64,000 bases of DNA from Streptomonospora alba (GTDB taxonomy: Bacteria; Actinomycetota; Actinomycetes; Streptosporangiales; Streptosporangiaceae). Within the stretch, counting starts at the first letter, position 1, and each line of letters opens with the position of its first letter. The stretch covers positions 1 through 64,000 of the forward strand of contig NZ_JROO01000037.1 of the NCBI RefSeq assembly GCF_000826685.1, in the 5' to 3' direction. The notes under the pieces were generated by a model. It ran no database searches, was not told the DNA's origin, and was given only the letters and a program-made list of their open reading frames with translations. The translations under genes were made by a program, and so were the position numbers. Positions 5,449-31,727 of the stretch are shown piece after piece.

Positions 5449-6647
5449 TGCGGCCTCCGGCCGCCGGCCCACGTCCAGGCGTAGCCGGGGTCTTCGGCGG
5501 CCCGACCACCCTCACCCAGCTCCAGCGGACGGAAGGTGTCGACCATGACCGCCAGCTCCTCGAAGGCCTGCACACCCACGCTGGCCTCGTATGCGCCGGG
5601 CTGGGGCCCGTGGGAGTGCCCGCCCGGGTGCAGCGAGATCGAGCCCGGTCCGATGCCCGAGCCCTTGCGGGCTTCGTAGTCGCCCCCGCAGTAGAACATG
5701 ACCTCGTCGGAGTCGACGTTGGAGTGGTAGTAGGGCACGGGGATCGACAGCGGGTGGTAGTCGACCTTGCGGGGCACGAAGTTGCAGATCACGAAGTTGT
5801 GCGCCTCGAAGACCTGGTGGACCGGCGGCGGCTGGTGCACCCGCCCGGTGATCGGCTGGAAGTCGGCCACGTTGAACACGTAGGGGTAGAGGCAGCCGTC
5901 CCAGCCCACCACGTCGAAGGGATGGGCCGGGTAGGTGTAGCGGGTGCCGTCCACGCCGCCCGGGCCGCTGCCGCGGTGTTTGATCAGCACGTCGACGTCG
6001 CTGCCCTCGGCCAGCAGCGGCTCGCTCGGCCCGCGCAGGTCGCGCTCGCAGTAGGGCGCGTGTTCCAGGAACTGGCCGAAGCGCGAAAGGTAGCGCTTGG
6101 GCGGCGTGATGTGGCTGTTGGCCTCGACGGCGTAAGCGCGCAGGGGCTCCTCGCCCTCGGGGATCCACCGGTGGGTGGTGGCGCGCGGCAGGATCACGTA
6201 GTCGCCCCCGCCGACCTCCAGCGCCCCGAACACGGTCTCCACCATGGCGCGGCCCGATTCCACGTACACGCACTCGTCGCCGATGGCGTTGCGGTAGAGC
6301 TCGGAGGGCTGCCCGGCGGCGACGTAGCCGATGCGCACGTCGTCGTTGGCGAGGATCAGGCGGCGCCCGGTGACGGCGTCGGCCGCCTTCCACTCCTCGC
6401 CGAAGAGCCCGTGCAGCTTCAGGTGGCGCGGCACGAGCGGCGCGTTGGGCGTGCGGGTCTGGTCGGGCACCTGCCACGGGCGGGCGTCGGCGATGGCCGA
6501 GGGGATGTTGCGGTGGTACAGCAGCGAGGAGTCGGCGGAGAACCCCTCCTCGCCCATCAGTTCCTCGTAGTACAGCCCGCCCTCGGGCGTGCGGTGCTGG
6601 GTGTGCCGCGTGCGCGGGACCTCACCCACGTGCCGGTAGTACGCCAC
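5445..6647 (-). CDS. hmgA: Homogentisate 1,2-dioxygenase
   Basis: 400 aa cupin-fold non-heme Fe(II) enzyme that opens the ring of homogentisate to maleylacetoacetate. The iron-ligand regions are visible: HSNVDSDEVMFY (His about 306, Glu about 312) and HPGGHSHGP (His about 342-344). It is shorter than animal enzymes (about 445 aa), as usual for the actinobacterial form. GTG at 6647 is preceded by AAAGGAG; it starts 26 bp inside the upstream monooxygenase gene, implying coupling. The frame is open far upstream, but that part is antisense or out of frame to the monooxygenase gene. Confidence 0.96.
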   Translation of the reverse strand: MAYYRHVGEVPRTRHTQHRTPEGGLYYEELMGEEGFSADSSLLYHRNIPSAIADARPWQVPDQTRTPNAPLVPRHLKLHGLFGEEWKAADAVTGRRLILANDDVRIGYVAAGQPSELYRNAIGDECVYVESGRAMVETVFGALEVGGGDYVILPRATTHRWIPEGEEPLRAYAVEANSHITPPKRYLSRFGQFLEHAPYCERDLRGPSEPLLAEGSDVDVLIKHRGSGPGGVDGTRYTYPAHPFDVVGWDGCLYPYVFNVADFQPITGRVHQPPPVHQVFEAHNFVICNFVPRKVDYHPLSIPVPYYHSNVDSDEVMFYCGGDYEARKGSGIGPGSISLHPGGHSHGPQPGAYEASVGVQAFEELAVMVDTFRPLELGEGGRAAEDPGYAWTWAGGRRPQ

Positions 6648-8322
6648 CGTCCTGCTCCTTTCCTGGTCGCGGGATCCGCCCGGCGGCGGGTGCGCCGCCC
6701 AGGCAGGTGTCGGCGGCCGCGGTGACGGCCGCCGTGTCGTCCTCGTCGAGGACCGCGGCGATGTGGGCGTCGGGACGCAGCAGCCAGACCTCGCCGGGGC
6801 GGGCGTCCAGAGCCGCGGCCAGCGCCCCGTCGGGGTCGGCCTCCTCCAGCGCGAGCGCGGTGACGGGGGCGGCGGTGGCGCGCTGCGCTGCGGCTCGGGC
6901 GGCTTCGGCGCCGTGCGCGCTCGCGGCGATGACCGTGACCCCCTCGCGCGCCAGCGCGCGCAGCCGCGTGACGCCGGGTCTGTCCTCCACGTGCAGGGGG
7001 ACGTCGGGCACGAGCACGCCGGGGCAGGGCTCGGGCGCCTCGCCGCGCGGCGGACGGCCGGGGAAGGGCCGCTGCGCACACGGGGTGGTCAGCGCCGAGT
7101 CGGTGTACCAGAACGCCTCGAACAGCCGCCCGGAGTCGACTCGTGCGGCCGCGGCCGGATCGGAGCGGGCGCTTTCCAGCACACGCAGGCGGTGGGCGTG
7201 CTCCTCCTCGGTGCGGGGCACCAGGAACCGCATGGTGGCGCCGGTGACCTCGGCGTTGTCGCGGGCCGCGGCCAGTCTCTCGGCGGAGTAGCTCTCGACC
7301 AGGTGCGGGCCGCCCCAGCCGTTGAGGGCGAACGCCAGTTTCCAGGCGGCGTTCTCGGCGTCGTGCACCCCGGAGTTGAGGCCGCGCGCCCCGAAGGGGG
7401 CGACCAGGTGGGCGCAGTCGCCGGCCAGCAGCACCCGCCCGGCGCCCATGGGGTCGGCCACGCGGGTGTGGAAGCGGTAGACCGAGTGCCACACGATCTC
7501 GTAGGGGCGCTCGCCGATGATCTGGCGGATGCGCCGGTCCAGACCGCCCTGCGCCTCCTCGCGCTCCAGGTCGAAGTCGGGCGGCACCTGCCAGTCGATG
7601 CGGTAGACCGAGTCGGGGCAGGGATGGATGAGGATCTGGCGGCCCGGGTTCCACGCGGGGTCGAAGTAGAAGCGCCGCTCGCGCTCCCATCCGGCCAGAT
7701 CGGCGCGGATGTCGCAGATGAGGAACCGGTCGTCGAAGCTGGCGCCGCCGAAGTCGGCGCCGACCGCCTCGCGCGCCACCCGCCCGTGCGGGCCCAGGCA
7801 CGCCACCGCGTAGGAGCCGCGCAGCTCGACCGGGCCCGAGGGGGTCGCGCACCGCACGCGCACCCCGGCGTCGTCCTGGTCGATGGCGGTGACCTCGTGG
7901 TTCCAGTGCACGCGCAGCCCGGCCGCGGCCATGCGCTCGTCGAGGATGCGCTCGGTGCGGGATTGGGAGAGGTTGACGAACGGCGGCAGCGGCGAGGCGC
8001 CGCGGTCGCGCAGCCCGACGCTGAACAGCTCGTGGTCGCGGTAGAAGGTGCGGGCGGTGTCCCAGGTCAGCCCTTCCTCGGCGACGGCGTGGGCGCCCAG
8101 GTCCTCCCAGACGTCGAGCACGTCGCGCTGCTGGACGATGGCCTTGGATCCGACGGCCTCGCGCTCGGGGCGGGCGTCGACGACGGTCACGGGCAGGCCC
8201 CAGCGCGCCAGCAGCAGCGCCGCGGTCTGGCCCACCGGACCGGCGCCCAGCACCAGCACGGGTGCGGCCGCCCCGCCGAGCTCGGCCGACGGGGCGGGGG
8301 GCGGTACTGACTCCTCGGGCAT
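6622..8322 (-). CDS. FAD-dependent aromatic monooxygenase (PheA/TfdB family)
   Basis: 566 aa. N-terminal Rossmann motif VLGAGPVGQTAALLLARWG (GxGxxG), a middle DG-type region, and GRVLLAGDCAHLVAPFGARGLNSG, the FAD ribityl/pyrophosphate GD motif of class A flavin monooxygenases. A C-terminal thioredoxin-like extension is expected from the length. In this operon it most likely ring-hydroxylates a hydroxyphenylacetate-type acid to homogentisate using NAD(P)H and O2 (inference from context). ATG 8322 has GGAGG seven bases upstream. Overlaps hmgA by 26 bp. Confidence 0.93.
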   Translation of the reverse strand: MPEESVPPPAPSAELGGAAAPVLVLGAGPVGQTAALLLARWGLPVTVVDARPEREAVGSKAIVQQRDVLDVWEDLGAHAVAEEGLTWDTARTFYRDHELFSVGLRDRGASPLPPFVNLSQSRTERILDERMAAAGLRVHWNHEVTAIDQDDAGVRVRCATPSGPVELRGSYAVACLGPHGRVAREAVGADFGGASFDDRFLICDIRADLAGWERERRFYFDPAWNPGRQILIHPCPDSVYRIDWQVPPDFDLEREEAQGGLDRRIRQIIGERPYEIVWHSVYRFHTRVADPMGAGRVLLAGDCAHLVAPFGARGLNSGVHDAENAAWKLAFALNGWGGPHLVESYSAERLAAARDNAEVTGATMRFLVPRTEEEHAHRLRVLESARSDPAAAARVDSGRLFEAFWYTDSALTTPCAQRPFPGRPPRGEAPEPCPGVLVPDVPLHVEDRPGVTRLRALAREGVTVIAASAHGAEAARAAAQRATAAPVTALALEEADPDGALAAALDARPGEVWLLRPDAHIAAVLDEDDTAAVTAAADTCLGGAPAAGRIPRPGKEQDGGVLPARG

Positions 8323-8351
8323 GTCGCCTCCGTTCACTCGCGGCAGGGCAC

Positions 8352-9314
8352 TCAGCTCTGCAGCCGGTCCCAGACCTCGCGATCGCGTTCGGCGGTCCAG
8401 ATGACGGGGCGCTCGATCCCCGACAGCTCGTCCCACAGCCGCGACACGTCGAAGGGCAGGCAGTGCTCGAAGATGGGCCAGTGGCCGTAGGTGCCCACCA
8501 GCGCGGCGTGGGCGGCGGTGAAGGCCTCCTTGAGAGTGCCGCCGCGCCCGTGCACCGCGCCGACCTCGGCGATCATGGTGCCCAGGAAGTCGCGGGTCTG
8601 AGCGATGGCGGCGTCCACCGCCGCGCGCCCGTGGGTGACGGGGCCGCGCCCGCCGATGAGCGCCTCGGCGCGCAGCGCGGCGAGGCCGTCGAGGGTGGGG
8701 CCGGCCCAGTCGTAGTGGAAGGCGTCGCCGGTGTAGAGCGCGGCCTCGGCCTCGACCAGGTCGCCGGCGAAGAGGATGCGCTGCTTGGGCAGCCAGGCGA
8801 CGATGTCGCCCTCGGTGTGGCCGCGGCCGAGGTATTGCAGGACGAGCTGCCCGCGGTCGCCGCCCAGGTCGATGGTGGTGCGGTCGGAGAAGGTCAGTGT
8901 GGGCCAGGTCAGCCCGGGCACCGAGTCGGGATCCTTGGCCAGGCGCGGCATGCGGCCGAACTCGCTGGCCCAGTCGGCCTCGCCGCGTTCGGCGATCAGG
9001 TCGCGGGTCTTCTCGTGGGCGACGACGACGTCGGCGCCGAAGGCGCTGGCTCCCAGCACGCGAACCGCGTGGTAGTGCGAGAGCACGAGGTAGCGGATGG
9101 GCTTGTCGGTGTACTCGCGCAGCCGCGCCAGCCACTCGCGGGCGGCCGTGGGGGTGGCCATGGCCTCGAAGCAGACCAGGAAGTCCTCGCCTTCGATCGC
9201 GCCGATGTTGGGGTCGCCCTGGGCGGTAAGCGCGTAGACGCCGTCGGCGACGACCTCGAGCGTCTGCTCCTTCTCGGCGAGGTCGGCCGAAGAGGCGAAG
9301 GGTTTGGCTGCCAT
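8352..9314 (-). CDS. Metallo-beta-lactamase-fold protein with altered metal motif
   Basis: 320 aa. The fold is recognisable from SHYHAVRVLG, GRGHTEGD and LFAGDLVEAE. The usual HxHxDH motif reads HYHAVR: the first two His remain but the Asp-His pair is replaced, while the later GHT His and GD Asp are kept. Metal binding is therefore probably partial (single metal or altered). Gene lies 29 bp upstream of the monooxygenase gene in the homogentisate operon. Possible roles are thioester/lactone hydrolysis or accessory chemistry on a pathway intermediate; not decidable here. Confidence 0.88.
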   Translation of the reverse strand: MAAKPFASSADLAEKEQTLEVVADGVYALTAQGDPNIGAIEGEDFLVCFEAMATPTAAREWLARLREYTDKPIRYLVLSHYHAVRVLGASAFGADVVVAHEKTRDLIAERGEADWASEFGRMPRLAKDPDSVPGLTWPTLTFSDRTTIDLGGDRGQLVLQYLGRGHTEGDIVAWLPKQRILFAGDLVEAEAALYTGDAFHYDWAGPTLDGLAALRAEALIGGRGPVTHGRAAVDAAIAQTRDFLGTMIAEVGAVHGRGGTLKEAFTAAHAALVGTYGHWPIFEHCLPFDVSRLWDELSGIERPVIWTAERDREVWDRLQS

Positions 9315-9404
9315 CGGGATGTCTCCTCTTGCTGGGGTCGGGATCGGGTCGGCGAAGCGGGCGGCGGGCCGGCGGTGTGCTGCCGGTTCCTCGATTGGAG
9401 CCGA

Positions 9405-10715
9405 TCAGTCCCGGGCGGGCTCAGCGGCGCGCCGGGGCATCAGCACCGCCAGGCAGGCGAGGCTGAGCAGGCAGACGGCGAACAGGTAGCCGGTGATGGG
9501 CCAGGAGGACTGCCAGGCGGCGTAGAGGGCGGTGGCGGCGGTGGGCGCCAGGCCGCCGCCCAGGATCGAGCCGACCTGGTAGCCCAGGGAGGCGCCGCTG
9601 TAGCGCACCCTGGCGCTGAAGAGCTCGGAGAACAGCGCGGCCAGCGGGCCGTAGGTGGCGCCGAGGAAGAACGCGGCGCCCGCCATCGCGATCACGATCA
9701 GTCCGGTGTTCGCGGTGTCGATGAGCGGGAAGAACACCAGCACCCAGGCGGCCAGCCCGACCGATCCGCCCAGCAGCACCCGGCGCCGGCCCAGCCTGTC
9801 GCTCAGGGCCGAGGCCCACGGGATGGAGACCAGCCACACGAGCGCGCCCAGGAGGGTGATCCCCAGCATCAGGCTGCGGTCCAGGCCCAGCACGGTGGTG
9901 GTGTAGGACAGCGCGTAGGCCATGAAGATGTAGCCGACGGTGTTGTTGCCGATGAAGGCGCCGGCGGCGAGCAGCACCTGCTTGGGGTTGTGGCGCAGCA
10001 CCGCGGCGATGGGCATGCGGGCCTTGGCGCCGCTGCGGTCGACCGCCACGAAGTCGGGGCTCTCGCTGATGCGGAAGCGGATGAACAGGCCCACCGCCAC
10101 CAGTACCGCGCTGAGCAGGAACGGCACTCGCCATCCCCAGGCCATGAACGCCTCGTCGCTCACCGCCGAGGACATCGACAGGAAGACGATGTTGGCCAGG
10201 ATCAGCCCGCCGGGCACGCCCATCTGCGGGAAGCTGCCGTAGAAGCCGCGGCGGTGGCGCGGGGCGTGCTCGACGGCCATCAGCACGGCGCCGCCCCATT
10301 CGCCGCCCACGCCCAGGCCCTGGATGAAGCGGAGGACGACCAGCAGCACCGGCGCCCACACGCCGATGGTCTGGTAGGTGGGCAGCAGCCCGATGGCGAA
10401 CGTGGCCGCGCCCATCATGATCAGCGAGGTCACCAGCATGGATTTGCGGCCGATGCGGTCGCCGAAGTGGCCCATGACGACACCGCCCACAGGGCGGGCG
10501 AAGAAGCCCACGGAGAACGTGGCGAAGGCGGCCAGGGTGCCGGCCACCGAGGAGAACTCGGGGAAGAACAGCGGGCCGAACACGATCGCGGCGGCGCTGC
10601 CGTAGATGAAGTAGTCGTACCACTCCACGGCGGTGCCGATGAAGCTTGCTGAGGCGACCTTGAACGGGCTGACGGGGGCCGGTGCGGTGGACGCGGCCCG
10701 GGGCGTGGGGGGCAT
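9405..10715 (-). CDS. MFS transporter, metabolite:H+ symporter (MHS) family
   Basis: 436 aa, about 12 membrane segments. Family marks: SFIGTAVEWYDYFIYGSAAA at TM1, GHFGDRIGRKSML between TM2 and TM3, RFIQGLGVGGEWGGA in TM4. MHS members (ShiA, ProP, PcaT type) import organic acids with protons. As first gene of the homogentisate operon, it probably imports the aromatic acid (inference). ATG at 10715 chosen because the conserved TM1 begins about 25 residues later; an upstream open frame extends past the promoter. Confidence 0.93.
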   Translation of the reverse strand: MPPTPRAASTAPAPVSPFKVASASFIGTAVEWYDYFIYGSAAAIVFGPLFFPEFSSVAGTLAAFATFSVGFFARPVGGVVMGHFGDRIGRKSMLVTSLIMMGAATFAIGLLPTYQTIGVWAPVLLVVLRFIQGLGVGGEWGGAVLMAVEHAPRHRRGFYGSFPQMGVPGGLILANIVFLSMSSAVSDEAFMAWGWRVPFLLSAVLVAVGLFIRFRISESPDFVAVDRSGAKARMPIAAVLRHNPKQVLLAAGAFIGNNTVGYIFMAYALSYTTTVLGLDRSLMLGITLLGALVWLVSIPWASALSDRLGRRRVLLGGSVGLAAWVLVFFPLIDTANTGLIVIAMAGAAFFLGATYGPLAALFSELFSARVRYSGASLGYQVGSILGGGLAPTAATALYAAWQSSWPITGYLFAVCLLSLACLAVLMPRRAAEPARD

Positions 10716-22828: not shown

Positions 22829-23080
22829 TCAGAGTCGACGGTCCTTGAGGTCCTTCAGGAAGGACGACCACTCGCAGGCGGGGAAGGCGAGGTGGCCGTG
22901 GTCGCGGTGCTGGGTGTCGCGGACGGCTGCTCCGTATGCGGTGTCCGCCACCTCGACGCAGTTGCCGTTCTGGGAGTTGCTGTAGGTGGATTTGCGCCAG
23001 GTCACAGCCATCTCGACGCAGTTCCCGCCGGTGTCGTTGCTGTAGCTGGACTTACGCCAGGTAAGGCCGCGGGCGGTCAT
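22829..23080 (-). CDS. DUF397 protein with duplicated motif
   Basis: 83 aa. Contains two tandem copies of the DUF397 signature, WRKSSYSNDTGGNCVEMA and WRKSTYSNSQNGNCVEVA, then a single C-terminal DTQHRDHGHLAF part; most family members carry one copy. DUF397 genes in actinomycetes nearly always follow an XRE/DUF5753 regulator and are linked to development or antitoxin-like control. Here the ATG overlaps the stop of the regulator remnant as ATGA, with AGGAG upstream, so the original pairing is kept although the regulator is broken. Confidence 0.9.
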   Translation of the reverse strand: MTARGLTWRKSSYSNDTGGNCVEMAVTWRKSTYSNSQNGNCVEVADTAYGAAVRDTQHRDHGHLAFPACEWSSFLKDLKDRRL

Positions 23081-23451: not shown

Positions 23452-24942
23452 TCAGTGGCCCTGGAGGGCCTCTTTGAGGTTGTTGTCGAGGGTCTTCAGG
23501 TCCTCGTCGGCGAGTTCTTCCTGCGACTGGCGGAACAACCTGTTCAGCTCGCTGTGCAGGACGTGGCTGTAGCGGGCGTAGTAGGGGCTGGTGGGGCGGT
23601 GGTGAGCGTTGCCGACCTCGGCGAGGAGGAGCCGGGAGTACTCCTCGCCGCGGCGGCTCTCCACCGTGGCTTCGGCGGGGGCCTCCTCGGGTGCCAGAGG
23701 CTCGGGGCACTCCCCCTCGATCGGGCCGGTGTAGGCGTCGGCCAGCACCGGCGGGTAGCCGCCGCAGTAGAGGAGGCGGCGCTGCTGGGCGGGGTCCGTG
23801 AGGTAGGAGATCAGGTCCCAGGCGGCGTCCGGGTGCCGGGAGGCGCTGCTGACCGCCAGGCTCTGGCCGCCCAGCACGCTCTCGCTGGGCAGCGGCGCGA
23901 CGCCGAACTCGATGGCGTCGCCGCCGCCGTCCGACTCGCCCGCCTCTTGCGGGGGCTGCTCCCCGCCGCCGGCCGCCGGTTCGACGGCGGGGTCCCGCGC
24001 CAGCTGGTCGTACCAGCCCGGCCAGTTGCGCATGGCCACGACCTCGCCGTCGACGAACTGCCGGAAGCTGTCGTACTCGGTGGCGTCGTCGGCCAGCACA
24101 CCCGGGTGCACAGTGCCGTCGGCCAGCGCCCGGGCCATCACGTCCACGGCGGCGCGGCCGGAATCGGCGGCGAACGCGACCGGCGGTTCGCTGTCTCCTC
24201 CGCTTCCGCGCATGCCGTAGGTGAACTCCAGCGTGTTGACGGTGAGCCCTTCGTAGGGCGCGAACTGGCCGCTGTAGCCGTAGTCGACGCCCTCGGCCTC
24301 GGCGGTCTCGCGCAGCATTTCCAGCGCGTCGGCCCAGCCGCCGACCAGGTCGTCTTCCCCCATCAGGTCGGCGCGGTAGTACAGCAGTCCGACATCGGCG
24401 ATGAAGGGCCTGGCCCAGACCGTGTCCCGGTAGGTGACCGCCTCCACGGAGGGCTCCAGCACGCCGGATGCGCCTACGTCCTCGGGCAGCGGTTCGATCC
24501 AGCCGTTGCGGGCGAACTCGGCCGTCCACTGGTTGTCGATGTTGAGGATGTCGTAGGAGAACCCCTCGGCCTGGGTCCAGCGCAGCAGCTCCGCGCGGAC
24601 CAGGTCGGCGCCGCCGGAGATCTCGATGAGCTCGGCGCGCACCTCGCCGTCCGCGCGGTCGGCGTTCCACTCGTCGACGAGCTGCTGATACAGCCCTGCG
24701 CCCGTGACGTCCTCCCCGGTGACCAGGGTTATGGCGCCCGGCTCGCCGCCGGCGCCCGGGCCGTCGGCGGCCAGGAGCGCCGCGGCCAGTGCGAGCGCGG
24801 TGGTGATCCCGGCCGCCACCGCCGCGCGCTCCCGGCGGCGGCGCAGGAAGAGCCAGCGCAGCGGCCAGGCGGCGCGCTCCGCACGGCGGCCGTCGGTTCG
24901 GCCGCCCGGCCCGCCGCCTGCCGCGTGCGATCGCGCCGCCAT
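23452..24942 (-). CDS. Membrane-tethered extracellular solute-binding protein (family 1 type)
   Basis: 496 aa. An Arg-rich cytoplasmic start and one N-terminal membrane helix (about residues 38-56) precede a family-1 sugar-type solute-binding fold: YQQLVDEWNA, YDILNIDNQW, WARPFIADVGLLYYR, GQSLAVSSASRHPDAAWDLISYLTDP. There is no lipobox, so it is anchored by the helix. ATG overlaps the stop of the upstream vWA gene (ATGA), giving strict coupling. No ABC permease or ATPase gene is nearby, which suggests the pair senses a ligand rather than feeding an importer (inference). Confidence 0.88.
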   Translation of the reverse strand: MAARSHAAGGGPGGRTDGRRAERAAWPLRWLFLRRRRERAAVAAGITTALALAAALLAADGPGAGGEPGAITLVTGEDVTGAGLYQQLVDEWNADRADGEVRAELIEISGGADLVRAELLRWTQAEGFSYDILNIDNQWTAEFARNGWIEPLPEDVGASGVLEPSVEAVTYRDTVWARPFIADVGLLYYRADLMGEDDLVGGWADALEMLRETAEAEGVDYGYSGQFAPYEGLTVNTLEFTYGMRGSGGDSEPPVAFAADSGRAAVDVMARALADGTVHPGVLADDATEYDSFRQFVDGEVVAMRNWPGWYDQLARDPAVEPAAGGGEQPPQEAGESDGGGDAIEFGVAPLPSESVLGGQSLAVSSASRHPDAAWDLISYLTDPAQQRRLLYCGGYPPVLADAYTGPIEGECPEPLAPEEAPAEATVESRRGEEYSRLLLAEVGNAHHRPTSPYYARYSHVLHSELNRLFRQSQEELADEDLKTLDNNLKEALQGH

Positions 24943-27254
24943 CACACCCTCCGCGCTTCGTCCAGCAGGCCCACCGCCGCCTCGCCGGGCCTGTCCGGCT
25001 CGGCGGGCACGCATTCGACGTGCTCGTGCCCGGTCAGCTCGGGGATGCCGCCAACCTCGCACGGGTTTGAACGGCCCCAGCGCCGCGTCTCGTCGCCGAC
25101 GGCCAGCACGCGCACCCGCACGTCGGTGTCGTCGAGGCGGCGCTGCAGCGCCTGTACGCCCAGCCCGCCCTGCTCCGGCTCGCCCACCCCGTCGGTGACC
25201 ACGACGAGCACGGGGGCCGGGCGCTTCCCTCCGCCCGGCGCCGCTGAGACGTCCTGGGACCACCGTTCAAGGGCGTCGGCCCCGTCGGCGACGACGTCCC
25301 GCAGGGGAGTGGACTCCCTGGTCGGCGCGAGACCGGCCAGCGCGTCGGCGAACCGGTCGCCGTCCGCGCCCCGCGTCTCCAGCGGCACGACGGCGGTGGA
25401 GTCCGTGGCCGAGGGGCCCGAATTGCGCGGGAACGCCCACAGCCCCAGTGCGTCCTTGGCGCCCGCGGCTTCGGCCAGCTCGGCGGCCTCCTCCACCGCG
25501 GTGGCGAATTTGCGGTGCGGGATGTCCATCGAGGAGGAGGTGTCGAGGGCGAGCAGGAGGGTACCGCCCTGCGTCTCGGTGTAGAGGGACTCCACGGCCG
25601 CGGCCCGGTCGCTCCAGGTGTGCGGCTCGCCCCGCTCGTTGGGGATGGTCTGGGGCGCGCCCTCCACCCGTGCGGCGACGCGGCCGTTGCCCTGCTCGTC
25701 GCGGTAGCCCTCATAGACGCCGGTGGAGGTCGCGCCGGTGTCGTCGTTGCTGAAGGAGGCGGAGAAGGCGGTCGGCGGGGATTCGCGCAGCGAGGACAGG
25801 AAGCGCTCGAAGCGCTCGACTTCGCGGACGACCGCGGCGGACTCGGTGACCGGCGCGGGCGGGCCGCCCTCCTCGGTGACGCTCACGCCCGAAACCCGCA
25901 CGAACGGGTGGTCGAGCACCGGCAGGTCCGGTGAATAGATCGCGGCGACCTCCTCGCGGGCCTCGTCCTCGCCGGGGCAGGCGGTGCGCCAGCGTCCGGC
26001 CACGAACGTCTCGTAGACGGCGGCTTCGGTGGTCAGCGCCGCGGAGGGGACGTCGCCGTCGGCGTCGCGCGCGACCTGGCAGACGAGGTCGTGCTCGCTG
26101 TCGGCCGCGGTGCCCAACTCCAACTCCGCCTCGACCTCGGCCGCGCGCTGCTCGTCGGCGATGTCGCCGTTGCGGGTGATGGCGCCGCGGCTGTGGTAGA
26201 GGAACGCGGTGTGCAGCATCGAGGCGATGGAGTCGCGCGGATCGGTACGGATCACCCGGATGCCGCCGCGCCCGAACTCCGCGCGCAGTCGGGCGTAGGG
26301 ACGGTCCATCTCCACGTCGTCGGCGTCGCCCCCGGTAAGGCGCTGGGCAACGCCGGTCGGCAGCGCGAGCACGAGCGGGGTGAGGCGGGTCCACTCCCCT
26401 ATCTCGATGTCGGCGACCTGTGCGATCGGGCGCCGGGAGGGGCCGGCGGCCTCCTGCCCGCCGGCCTCCTGGCCTGGCGTACCGGTTGCGCCGTCCGTGT
26501 CGGCCCCGGCAGAGAACCCGGGTGCGGGTTCCTCGCCCTGCCGGTCGAGGGCGCGCTCGACCAGCATCGCCTCGGCCGTGGAGCCGGGGATCCACACGTG
26601 CGGGAGCGGCCCCAGGCCCGGGTCCCACGCGCCCAGCAGCGCGTCGCGCATCCGCTGGCCGTCGGCGACGGCGTAGACGGTTATGCGGACGCTGCGGCAG
26701 CGCTCGCCGTCCTCGCCGCCTTCGGCGCGCCGTTGGGCGAAGGCGGCGGCGGCGCCCTCCACCGCGGGCTCGCCGTCGGGGGTGGTGGCGACGACGAGTT
26801 CGGCGGGCGGGTCGCAGGAGCCGCCGAGCGGCCAGGCCGCGACCGCGAGGAGCAGGACGACGGCGAGCGTGGGGGCGAGGACGTAGCGAAGCACCCGCCG
26901 CCGGGGCGACGACCGGCTCGTCGCGCGGGTGAACGGGAACCGGTCGCGCAGACGCCGGGCGGGGCCCTCGGCCGGTGCGGCGGCCGGGCGCTGCTCCGGA
27001 TCGCCGCTCAGGGCCCAGGCCCACAGCCCCGCCAGCATCCACACCAGGAGGATCCCGGAGCACACGTGCACCAGGAGCTCCCCGTAGCCGCCGAGCCCCG
27101 CGACCGGATCATCGGCCACCAGGTCCAGCAGTCCGCCGCCCAGGAGCAGCAGAACGAAGGCGACGACTTCGTGGATCGCCAGGAAGACCAGCCGCAGGAG
27201 TGCCGCCAGTGCGTCCAGCAGGCTCTGCCCGCCCTGCTGGGGACGCTCCGGCAT
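24942..27254 (-). CDS. Membrane protein with substrate-binding-like and C-terminal von Willebrand factor A domains
   Basis: 770 aa. Two membrane helices near the N-terminus (about residues 12-45 and 57-80), a third at about 120-142, then a long extracytoplasmic part. A periplasmic-binding-like region (starting AELVVATTPDGEPAVEGAAA, reaching about residue 530) is followed by a vWA domain with the MIDAS motif DTSSSMD and VVVTDGVGEP. Resembles actinobacterial substrate-binding/vWA proteins. ATG 27254 has GGAGGG upstream. Co-transcribed with the solute-binding protein; a metal-dependent protein contact between the two is plausible but unproven. Confidence 0.87.
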   Translation of the reverse strand: MPERPQQGGQSLLDALAALLRLVFLAIHEVVAFVLLLLGGGLLDLVADDPVAGLGGYGELLVHVCSGILLVWMLAGLWAWALSGDPEQRPAAAPAEGPARRLRDRFPFTRATSRSSPRRRVLRYVLAPTLAVVLLLAVAAWPLGGSCDPPAELVVATTPDGEPAVEGAAAAFAQRRAEGGEDGERCRSVRITVYAVADGQRMRDALLGAWDPGLGPLPHVWIPGSTAEAMLVERALDRQGEEPAPGFSAGADTDGATGTPGQEAGGQEAAGPSRRPIAQVADIEIGEWTRLTPLVLALPTGVAQRLTGGDADDVEMDRPYARLRAEFGRGGIRVIRTDPRDSIASMLHTAFLYHSRGAITRNGDIADEQRAAEVEAELELGTAADSEHDLVCQVARDADGDVPSAALTTEAAVYETFVAGRWRTACPGEDEAREEVAAIYSPDLPVLDHPFVRVSGVSVTEEGGPPAPVTESAAVVREVERFERFLSSLRESPPTAFSASFSNDDTGATSTGVYEGYRDEQGNGRVAARVEGAPQTIPNERGEPHTWSDRAAAVESLYTETQGGTLLLALDTSSSMDIPHRKFATAVEEAAELAEAAGAKDALGLWAFPRNSGPSATDSTAVVPLETRGADGDRFADALAGLAPTRESTPLRDVVADGADALERWSQDVSAAPGGGKRPAPVLVVVTDGVGEPEQGGLGVQALQRRLDDTDVRVRVLAVGDETRRWGRSNPCEVGGIPELTGHEHVECVPAEPDRPGEAAVGLLDEARRV

Positions 27255-27496: not shown

Positions 27497-27673
27497 CTAC
27501 GAACGGCGGTGGCGGCCCCGAGGTGCGCGGCGCCCGTTGCAGCGCAGGACCAGCGCGAGCACGAGGAGGGCGGCGGCCGCACCGCCCGCCAGCAGCACGG
27601 GTGCGATGCGCGCGGGCGGGACGGGCTGGTCGAACGGCGAGTGCGCAGGAGCCTGCGACCGCGTGTCGGACAT
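27497..27673 (-). CDS. Small single-TM protein
   Basis: 58 aa: a Ser/Pro-rich start, one hydrophobic helix (about residues 20-43) and a basic tail (RGRHRRS). ATG 27673 is preceded by GAAAGGAAA at acceptable spacing. It is 242 bp upstream of the vWA/solute-binding operon on the same strand and could belong to that unit. Small size limits certainty. Confidence 0.5.
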   Translation of the reverse strand: MSDTRSQAPAHSPFDQPVPPARIAPVLLAGGAAAALLVLALVLRCNGRRAPRGRHRRS

Positions 27674-29875: not shown

Positions 29876-30820
29876 TCAGCCGTTCATGAACTCCTCGTAG
29901 GCCTCCAGCACCTCTTCGGTGGGCCCGTCCATGACCAGGCTGCCGGTCTCCAGCCACAGCACCCGGTCGCAGGTGTCGCGAATGGACTTGTTGCTGTGGC
30001 TGACCAGGAAGACGGTGCCCGCCTCGCCCCGCAGTTCGCGGATGCGCTCCTCGGAGCGCCTGCGGAACTTGCGGTCGCCGGTGGCCAGCGCCTCGTCGAT
30101 CATCAGCACGTCGTGGTTCTTGGCCGAAGCGATCGCGAAGCGCAGCCGGGCGGCCATGCCCGAGGAGTAGGCGCGCATCGGCAGCGAGCTGAAGTCGCCC
30201 TTCTCGTTGATGCCCGAGAACCGGATGATCTCCTCGCGCTTGGCGTAGGCCTCCTGCGGCGTCATGCCCATCGCCAGGCAGCCGAGGATGACGTTGCGCT
30301 CGCCGCTGAGGTCGTTCATCAGCGCCGCGTTGACGCCCAGCAGCGAGGGCTGGCCCTCGGTGTAGACGCGGCCGGCCTCAGGCGGCATGAGCCCGGCGAT
30401 GGCGCGCAGGATCGTGGACTTCCCGGAGCCGTTGGAGCCGATCACGCCGATGGCCTCGCCCCGGTAGGCGGTGAAGCTCACGCCCCTGATGGCGTGCACC
30501 TTGCGGCCGCCCTTCTTCGCCTGCTCCGACCTGCCGGTCAGGCGCCGCACCGCCCGGGAGGCGCGCCCTCCGCGGTCCTGCTGCGGCTCCTGGTCCTGCT
30601 GCTCCTTGGCCGCGAGGGCCTGTTCGCGCAGCGCGGCCTTGCCTTTGGCGCCCTTGGCCTTGCCGGGGCCGCCGCCGCGCAGCCGGTAGACGATGTGCAG
30701 ATTGTCCACGATGACGGTGGGCGGCTGGTCCTGTTTCGCCTCGGCCTGCCCGTTCCGGCCGCCCTGCTCGGCCCGTGCAGCCTGGTCGGTCTGTTCGGCC
30801 TGTTCGGACACGTCAGTCAC
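29876..30820 (-). CDS. Polysaccharide/teichoic acid export ABC ATPase (TagH/Wzt-like)
   Basis: 314 aa. Walker A GSNGSGKST (about residue 127), signature YSSGMAARLRFA (about 213) and Walker B VLMIDEALATGD (about 236) with VSHSNKSI as the switch His. The motif spacing and DEALATGD are typical of TagH/Wzt exporters. Unusual: a Gln/Glu-rich N-terminal tail and an insertion of about 60 highly charged residues between the first strand (VDNLHIVYRL) and the second (VHAIRGVSF). No C-terminal substrate-recognition domain of the Wzt kind. Overlaps the permease gene by 8 bp. Confidence 0.93.
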   Translation of the reverse strand: MTDVSEQAEQTDQAARAEQGGRNGQAEAKQDQPPTVIVDNLHIVYRLRGGGPGKAKGAKGKAALREQALAAKEQQDQEPQQDRGGRASRAVRRLTGRSEQAKKGGRKVHAIRGVSFTAYRGEAIGVIGSNGSGKSTILRAIAGLMPPEAGRVYTEGQPSLLGVNAALMNDLSGERNVILGCLAMGMTPQEAYAKREEIIRFSGINEKGDFSSLPMRAYSSGMAARLRFAIASAKNHDVLMIDEALATGDRKFRRRSEERIRELRGEAGTVFLVSHSNKSIRDTCDRVLWLETGSLVMDGPTEEVLEAYEEFMNG

Positions 30821-31727
30821 GGCCGTACTCCTCTTCCGCCCGGTAGAAGTAGACGAACCCCGCGACCAGCGCGAGCAGCGCCCAACCCAGGGCGATCAGC
30901 CAGACGTGCGCGGGCAGGTACTGGGTACCGAAGTTCTCGGGACTCATCAGCGCGTATCGCATGAGGTCGATGTAGACGGCGGCGGGCTGCACGTCGAGCA
31001 CTGTCAGCGCCCATGTGGGCGCGTTGGCGGCGCGCTGCTCCACCATGTACAGCACGCCCGAACCGTACATCCAGGCGCGCAGTACGAACGGCAGCCACTG
31101 CGCGGCGTCGGTTGACTTACTGCCCAGTCGGGCGGCCCAGAACGCAAGCCCGGTGTTGAACATCAGCTGAAGCGCCAGGATGGGCACGATCAGCAGCCAA
31201 CTCCAGTCGGGATAGTTCTGCCGCGCGATGACGATCACCATCAGCACCACCATGGAGATCACGACCTGGCGCGACTTCATGCTGACCTGGGTGAGGGGAA
31301 GCACCGCGCGGGGGAAGTGCAGTGCGCGGATCAGCCCGCGCTCGCCCGAGATGGACTTCACGCCGCTGGTCACCGTGTCGCGGGTGAAGGTGAAGACGAA
31401 GACCCCGGTCACCAGGAAGGAGATGAAGTCCTCCACGCCGCGGCTCGTACCGAGCAGCAGGCCGAAGATCACGTAGTAGACGGCCGCGTTCATCAAGGGG
31501 GTGAGGACGAACCAGAATCCGCCGAGCCGGGCGCGCGTGTACTTGGTGGACGAGCGCGCCCTGGAGAACTCGCCGATGAAGTACCGGTGCTGCCACAGCC
31601 GGCGGATGTACTCGATCATGCCCGGCCGCGCGCCGGTGACCGACAGTCCGTATTTGGACGCCAGTTCCGCGGCGTGGGGATCCGGCCGATCCCTGGTGAC
31701 TCCGTCTAGTGCCACGCGTCTGCTCAC
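30813..31727 (-). CDS. ABC-2 polysaccharide export permease (TagG/Wzm-like)
   Basis: 304 aa with about six membrane helices. Cytoplasmic N-terminus ends RRLWQHRYFIGEFSRA, followed by YTRARLGGFWFVLTPLMNA, a hallmark of TagG/Wzm permeases. With the following ATPase it forms the exporter for a lipid-linked cell-surface glycan. No glycosyltransferases are adjacent, so the substrate is unknown. GTG 31727 is the probable start but has a weak ribosome site; the hydrophilic 40-residue N-terminus leaves the exact start open. Transcribed away from a TetR gene across two operator-like repeats. Confidence 0.92.
   Translation of the reverse strand: MSRRVALDGVTRDRPDPHAAELASKYGLSVTGARPGMIEYIRRLWQHRYFIGEFSRARSSTKYTRARLGGFWFVLTPLMNAAVYYVIFGLLLGTSRGVEDFISFLVTGVFVFTFTRDTVTSGVKSISGERGLIRALHFPRAVLPLTQVSMKSRQVVISMVVLMVIVIARQNYPDWSWLLIVPILALQLMFNTGLAFWAARLGSKSTDAAQWLPFVLRAWMYGSGVLYMVEQRAANAPTWALTVLDVQPAAVYIDLMRYALMSPENFGTQYLPAHVWLIALGWALLALVAGFVYFYRAEEEYGRD

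Follow-up and report, generated by a model that had tools for sequence, protein, structure and literature searches.

Two adjacent genes, here called A and B, in a stretch of 64,000 nucleotides of Streptomonospora alba DNA (the window, analysed as a whole) probably encode a solute-binding-protein-gated transmembrane receptor of Actinobacteria. We give this reading, in which we infer the signalling, the ligand and the contact between the A and B proteins, a probability of roughly 0.6; a role in surface sensing is most likely for the pair, rather than one in nutrient import. The observations concern the pairing of the genes, the architecture of their domains, the swapping of the cytosolic end of A, the conservation of the B pocket and of the MIDAS of A, and the absence of importer genes.

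Homologues of A were taken from the genus of the window, its order, the phylum and one Streptomyces-like genus, and the gene neighbourhood of each was read over 10-20 kb with a simple codon-usage gene caller. All locus counts are thus drawn from a sample of genomes, read with an ad hoc gene caller, and close relatives are counted individually.

Architecture of gene A

Gene A starts at the ATG at position 27254, which has AGGAGG upstream, and its product was modelled with AlphaFold2 from 79 sequences (pLDDT 82.6, pTM 0.76). Its features are the following (window positions):

24942..27254, minus strand: gene A, putative membrane receptor of 770 aa with three transmembrane (TM) helices, a type II periplasmic-binding-protein (PBP) ectodomain and a vWA domain
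27120..27227, minus strand: TM helix 1, residues 10-45 (AlphaFold2 model, hydropathy)
27006..27095, minus strand: TM helix 2, residues 54-83 (AlphaFold2 model, hydropathy)
26835..26906, minus strand: TM helix 3, residues 117-140, abutting the ectodomain (AlphaFold2 model, hydropathy)
25635..26816, minus strand: PBP domain, SBP_bac_11-like, with conserved Cys147, Cys186, Cys392 and Cys426 (Z to 5um2; SBP_bac_11 matches in relatives)
24945..25571, minus strand: vWA domain, running to residue 770 (Z to 4fx5; VWA_2 matches)
25527..25544, minus strand: MIDAS motif 1, DTSSSM, residues 571-576, the site being completed by T649 and D688

The initial annotation had proposed a 770-aa membrane protein that combines a substrate-binding-like region with a MIDAS-bearing vWA domain, and the AlphaFold2 model, the fold comparisons with VIA-align and a complete MIDAS all bear this out. 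The type II PBP domain begins at about residue 147 of the model; its closest counterparts among solved structures are sulfate- and iron-binding proteins (Z = 21.0 over 288 residues, rmsd 3.6, to the sulfate-binding 5um2), and the SBP_bac_11 profile matches relatives of A. The vWA part superposes on the vWA protein 4fx5 with Z = 19.7 over 178 residues (rmsd 2.7), while the VWA_2 profile is weak on window A (0.049) and reaches 4e-7 on one relative. Every residue of the metal site (DxSxS + T + D) is present in the window protein, namely D571, S573, S575, T649 and D688; the third MIDAS residue is missing in the caspase-type A proteins described below, which retain their pairing with B nonetheless. 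Six ectodomain cysteines (147, 186, 392, 426, 732, 748) are each kept in 60-62 of 62 proteins and, together with an Arg-rich loop ahead of helix 3, suggest, as far as topology can be read from the sequence, that the PBP-vWA part is extracytoplasmic. Pfam gave no match for residues 1-143 of window A.

Gene B and its pocket

23452..24942, minus strand: gene B, membrane-anchored family-1 solute-binding protein of 496 aa (profiles, fold match)
24769..24864, minus strand: N-terminal signal-anchor helix of B, residues 27-58, without lipobox
23455..24741, minus strand: solute-binding domain of B, with a trehalose/maltose-type pocket formed by D136, D183, E231, E289, W307, G359 and R449 (alignment to LpqY, PMC7949145)

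The description of B as a helix-anchored family-1 solute-binding protein (SBP) likewise stands, given its matches to the SBP_bac_8 (8e-21) and SBP_bac_1 (5e-17) profiles and the single helix at its N-terminus; a lipobox-like motif occurs in 40 of 63 B proteins. The fold matches that of maltose-bound MalE3 (Z = 39.0), and trehalose/maltose-binding proteins of the LpqY type (7ape, 1eu8, 6dtq) resemble B both in fold (Z 35-39) and in pocket residues. A phmmer search of the PDB with the B sequence alone found no match at E 1e-20; the B profile did match. In LpqY of Mycobacterium thermoresistibile, alanine mutants of E241, W259 and R404 lose trehalose binding (PMC7949145). These residues correspond to E289, W307 and R449 of B, and are kept in 62, 62 and 61 of 62 B proteins, respectively; D80 of LpqY corresponds to D136, kept in all 62, and N134 to D183, which is Asp in 60 of the 62, as it is in the trehalose/maltose-binding protein 1eu8. 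Since the pocket residues are retained, sugar binding of the alpha-glucoside type is still expected of B, and the ligand, judged from these residues, is most likely an alpha-glucoside-like sugar. The same residues are common to ordinary importer SBPs, so that pocket conservation alone is no proof of signalling.

Linkage of the two genes

24940..24944, minus strand: TGATG, in which the stop of A overlaps the start of B, predicted translational coupling

The ATG of B is preceded by a correctly spaced GGAGG and overlaps the stop of A by 1 bp. An overlap had indeed been annotated, at 4 bp, but this length applies only if B starts at the GTG at 24945; otherwise it is the 1 bp of the TGATG. From the genus of the window to Streptomyces-like genomes, all 63 loci carrying both genes have a B-type gene directly 3' of A and in the same orientation, and none of the 63 shows the EAA motif of permeases at a distance of up to five genes from A. 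The survey of neighbours suggested initially has thus returned a pair that is conserved without transporters. These two counts and the joint presence or absence of the genes in the genus favor the sensor or receptor proposed at the outset over an importer. Among control loci of ABC-type relatives, the EAA motif was present in 13 of 18, in smaller windows.

The converse search gave the same picture: all opened matches to the B profile of at least 340 bits adjoin A. Three B-profile matches have no adjoining A, one being a split reading of B (locus L050) and the others SBPs (L153, L158) that cluster with the ABC-type set. A-like genes without B comprise a distant standalone group, one protein fused to a PNP domain (L094) and one short gene (L180). 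In the tree, 62 A-linked B proteins are split from 21 ABC-type/LpqY proteins with support of 0.905, which under midpoint rooting is a split and not a proven clade. No separate inheritance of A and B was seen in the relatives surveyed.

The pair had also been described as having no ABC permease or ATPase nearby. This holds for importers, and no sugar permease accompanies the pair in the loci surveyed, but not for ABC genes in general:

30813-31727 and 29876-30820: ABC-2 permease and ATPase, of exporter type, 2.6 kb upstream of the pair

This exporter-type pair also occurs in congeneric genomes that lack A-B. A sugar ABC importer of the LpqY-SugABC type was considered for A-B and rejected: the SBP fold and pocket are present in B, but there is no linked importer permease or ATPase, and the B proteins form a separate group.

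Distribution and neighbouring genes

Within the genus of the window, A is present in four of six genomes and a strong B in the same four, neither gene being found in the other two. One member of this set is Streptomonospora sp. PA3, the only genome recovered when related loci were searched with the single window A protein. In a pairless congeneric genome (L141) both flanks show collinearity with the window and A-B is missing; other genes (6505-9536 of that locus) occupy the site, which makes it a variable spot. Farther afield, at least 40 of 201 sampled genomes of the order were confirmed to carry the pair, as were at least 21 of 150 genomes of the Streptomyces-like group. Searches for plasmid carriage by tblastn, with window A and with a caspase-type A, gave no match, and PADLOC returned nothing for window A or B.

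27497-27673, minus strand: small ORF of 58 aa upstream of A, with a single TM helix and a conserved GRHRR-type basic tail

This ORF, which had been suggested as a third part of the system, is present in all six genomes of the genus, where it separates a TetR gene from the A-B site. It is retained in both genomes that lack the pair (G001 and G004), and is therefore independent of A-B and rejected as a component. On the other side of the pair, 22829-23080 (minus strand) encodes a DUF397 protein in which two stretches, WRKSSYSN and WRKSTYSN, match its 55-aa domain and mark a tandem duplication of the start of that domain.

The exchangeable cytosolic end of A

A cytosolic output is fused to A in 33 of the 63 loci, a feature of the relatives that had escaped the initial annotation. 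The most frequent is a caspase-like domain ahead of the ectodomain (23 loci), with caspase His and Cys motifs recognizable by pattern in 21 of the 23. In three caspase types that were scanned, all from Streptomyces-like relatives, Peptidase_C14 passes its cut-off (1e-8 to 1e-6), while the model for EACC1-associated caspases, NF047832, scores 112-116 bits, below its cut-off of 140. A small EACC1-like gene lies upstream of caspase-type A, the EACC1 profile scoring 21-23.5 bits, under its cut-off of 23.6 (E = 3e-4 and 5e-5; no match in a third). A trypsin-like domain (Trypsin_2) is found on A in six loci, five of which (L043, L044, L045, L047, L048) have a Trypco2 gene upstream, with E-values of 1e-22 in L045 and 2.6e-17 in L043, the two that were scanned. 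The trypsin-like domain of L042 (9959-12379, minus strand) has GFLG in place of GxSG, and with the Ser motif lost is likely a pseudoprotease. A Ser/Thr protein kinase (Pkinase, 9e-40) with HRD and DFG intact occurs in one locus. The cyclase-like domain of three further loci is a weak assignment, made from motifs and a PDB profile match to 5d0g (E = 0.004), and has no match in Pfam.

The remaining 30 loci, including the window, have only two or three TM helices and no enzyme. By hydropathy alone, a fused enzyme goes with a single TM helix directly before the ectodomain and its absence with two or three; some of the exceptions stem from gene starts that are truncated. The ectodomain tree places the trypsin type within a clade of TM-only proteins (0.998) and the kinase type among others of this kind, from which it follows that the cytosolic part has been switched several times. 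No conserved separate effector gene was found beside the window-type A, and none of the six congeneric genomes has Trypco2. The idea that the window type depends on an EACC1 caspase acting in trans is not supported, since two genomes that carry the pair (G002, G003) lack such a caspase. The window genome itself encodes, elsewhere (contig C100, 118268-118948; locus L201), an EACC1-type caspase with a C-terminal hydrophobic membrane region.

Comparison with known systems

Among the closest known systems is GlnH-GlnX-PknG of Corynebacterium, in which an anchored SBP acts through a multi-TM protein on a separate kinase (PMC9769921). Stimulation of receptors by SBPs is moreover general (PMC9602780), and the two together provide a precedent for an SBP-gated receptor. 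Like A-B, the GlnH-GlnX systems of Corynebacterium and Mycobacterium are actinobacterial and combine an anchored SBP with a transmembrane protein that has extracytoplasmic domains; in A-B, the SBP gene always stands beside a transmembrane protein (63/63) and not a permease (0/63). The differences are that GlnH binds Asp/Glu, that GlnX, with four TM segments and a model that is largely helical, contains neither PBP nor vWA (PMC9769921), and that it has no types with a fused caspase, trypsin or kinase. LpqY-type proteins, in turn, differ from B in that B has no SugABC-like permease or ATPase and its partner is A.

For the cytosolic end, the available part of Kaur et al. 2020 (PMC7159879) lists vWA and TM-plus-PBP as variable domains behind EACC1 caspases. 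Its EACC1-caspase 'System 4' resembles our Streptomyces-like relatives, with an EACC1-like gene and a caspase fused to TM, PBP and vWA, and its Trypco/trypsin systems resemble those relatives that have Trypco2 and trypsin. Window A has none of caspase, EACC1, trypsin or Trypco2 and, because these defining domains are absent, cannot be assigned to either system. Relatives of A are therefore known to some extent, while the same part of that paper mentions neither a separate SBP gene as constant partner nor outputs being exchanged on a single ectodomain pair. A literature search of incomplete coverage found no paper joining solute-binding, von Willebrand and caspase domains in a transmembrane Streptomyces protein.

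Standalone SBP_bac_11-vWA lipoproteins of Actinobacteria share the PBP and vWA ectodomain of A, but have no B and no fused cytosolic domain, with the exception of L094 (6977-10069, plus strand), where a PNP_UDP_1 nucleoside phosphorylase domain is fused to the PBP-vWA protein. This ectodomain is common in the class, with a profile match in 141 of 297 genomes when all types are pooled. Several of the standalone genes (L090-L105) have PspA/IM30, small TM genes and an AAA ATPase resembling CbbX/EccA as neighbours; they make up a separate, widespread set of genes with a possible role in the envelope.

Proposed mechanism and alternative explanations

According to the receptor reading, B, anchored outside the membrane, would close on a sugar of the alpha-glucoside type, and ligand-loaded B would dock on the PBP-vWA ectodomain of A, whose membrane helices would relay the change to an output in the cytosol. 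About half of the relatives would have this output as a domain of A itself, either a caspase (with EACC1), a trypsin (with Trypco2), a kinase or a cyclase-like domain; in the genus of the window, with three TM helices and no fused enzyme, A would have to act on a separate partner or by way of its membrane helices. The docking, the class of ligand, and the direction and result of the signal are the putative elements of this scheme.

Through the exchangeable ends of its relatives the pair is connected with signalling systems of the conflict type in Actinobacteria, and in these relatives it is best read as the sensor part of caspase/trypsin systems of this type, the window copy having no enzyme in cis. 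A narrower form of the receptor reading, whose likelihood overlaps with that of the latter, makes the pair the extracellular half of a conflict system (immunity or programmed death) that would respond to a damaged envelope or to a glycan set free by an invader, and would trigger cytosolic proteases, with the helices or an unlinked protease as the effector in the case of the window. We regard it as possible, with the odds somewhat against it. The caspase/EACC1 and trypsin/Trypco2 combinations seen in the relatives are hallmarks of the systems described in PMC7159879, presence among congeneric genomes is patchy (4/6), and swapped outputs are typical of conflict systems; kinase and cyclase-like outputs, however, suit ordinary sensing equally well, PADLOC had no match for A or B, no neighbours indicative of a defence island were noticed, and the effector is absent from the window. 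Equally tentative is an actinobacterial death-receptor-like device, in which a sugar-sensing pair would switch a cytosolic caspase, trypsin, kinase or cyclase via one helix, enzyme-less versions working on separate partners or as decoys.

A role of A and B as a surface adhesin or in envelope maintenance is improbable; in such a complex the MIDAS would bind a wall or matrix protein and B a wall glycan, and the TM-only types would not signal. The complete MIDAS of the window type is consistent with such a role, and the standalone relatives near PspA and an AAA ATPase point to envelope work, but the cytosolic enzymes fused in other relatives imply transmembrane signalling, and the caspase group has lost a MIDAS residue and still keeps its pairing. 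Least probable is that B is an orphan importer SBP serving an unlinked sugar permease, with A an accessory surface protein: B is related to importer SBPs of the LpqY/MalE3 type and keeps the sugar pocket, but it is linked to A in every locus (63/63), never to a permease, and has its own group in the tree.

Significance

To our knowledge, no extracellular trigger has been established for the caspase and trypsin conflict systems of bacteria. A dedicated SBP that constantly accompanies a caspase or trypsin spanning the membrane would provide such a trigger, and one whose ligand class, alpha-glucosides such as trehalose or maltose, can be put to the test. SBP-gated signalling, known from GlnH-GlnX, would thereby extend to proteases, and the widespread A-B pair would gain a testable function.
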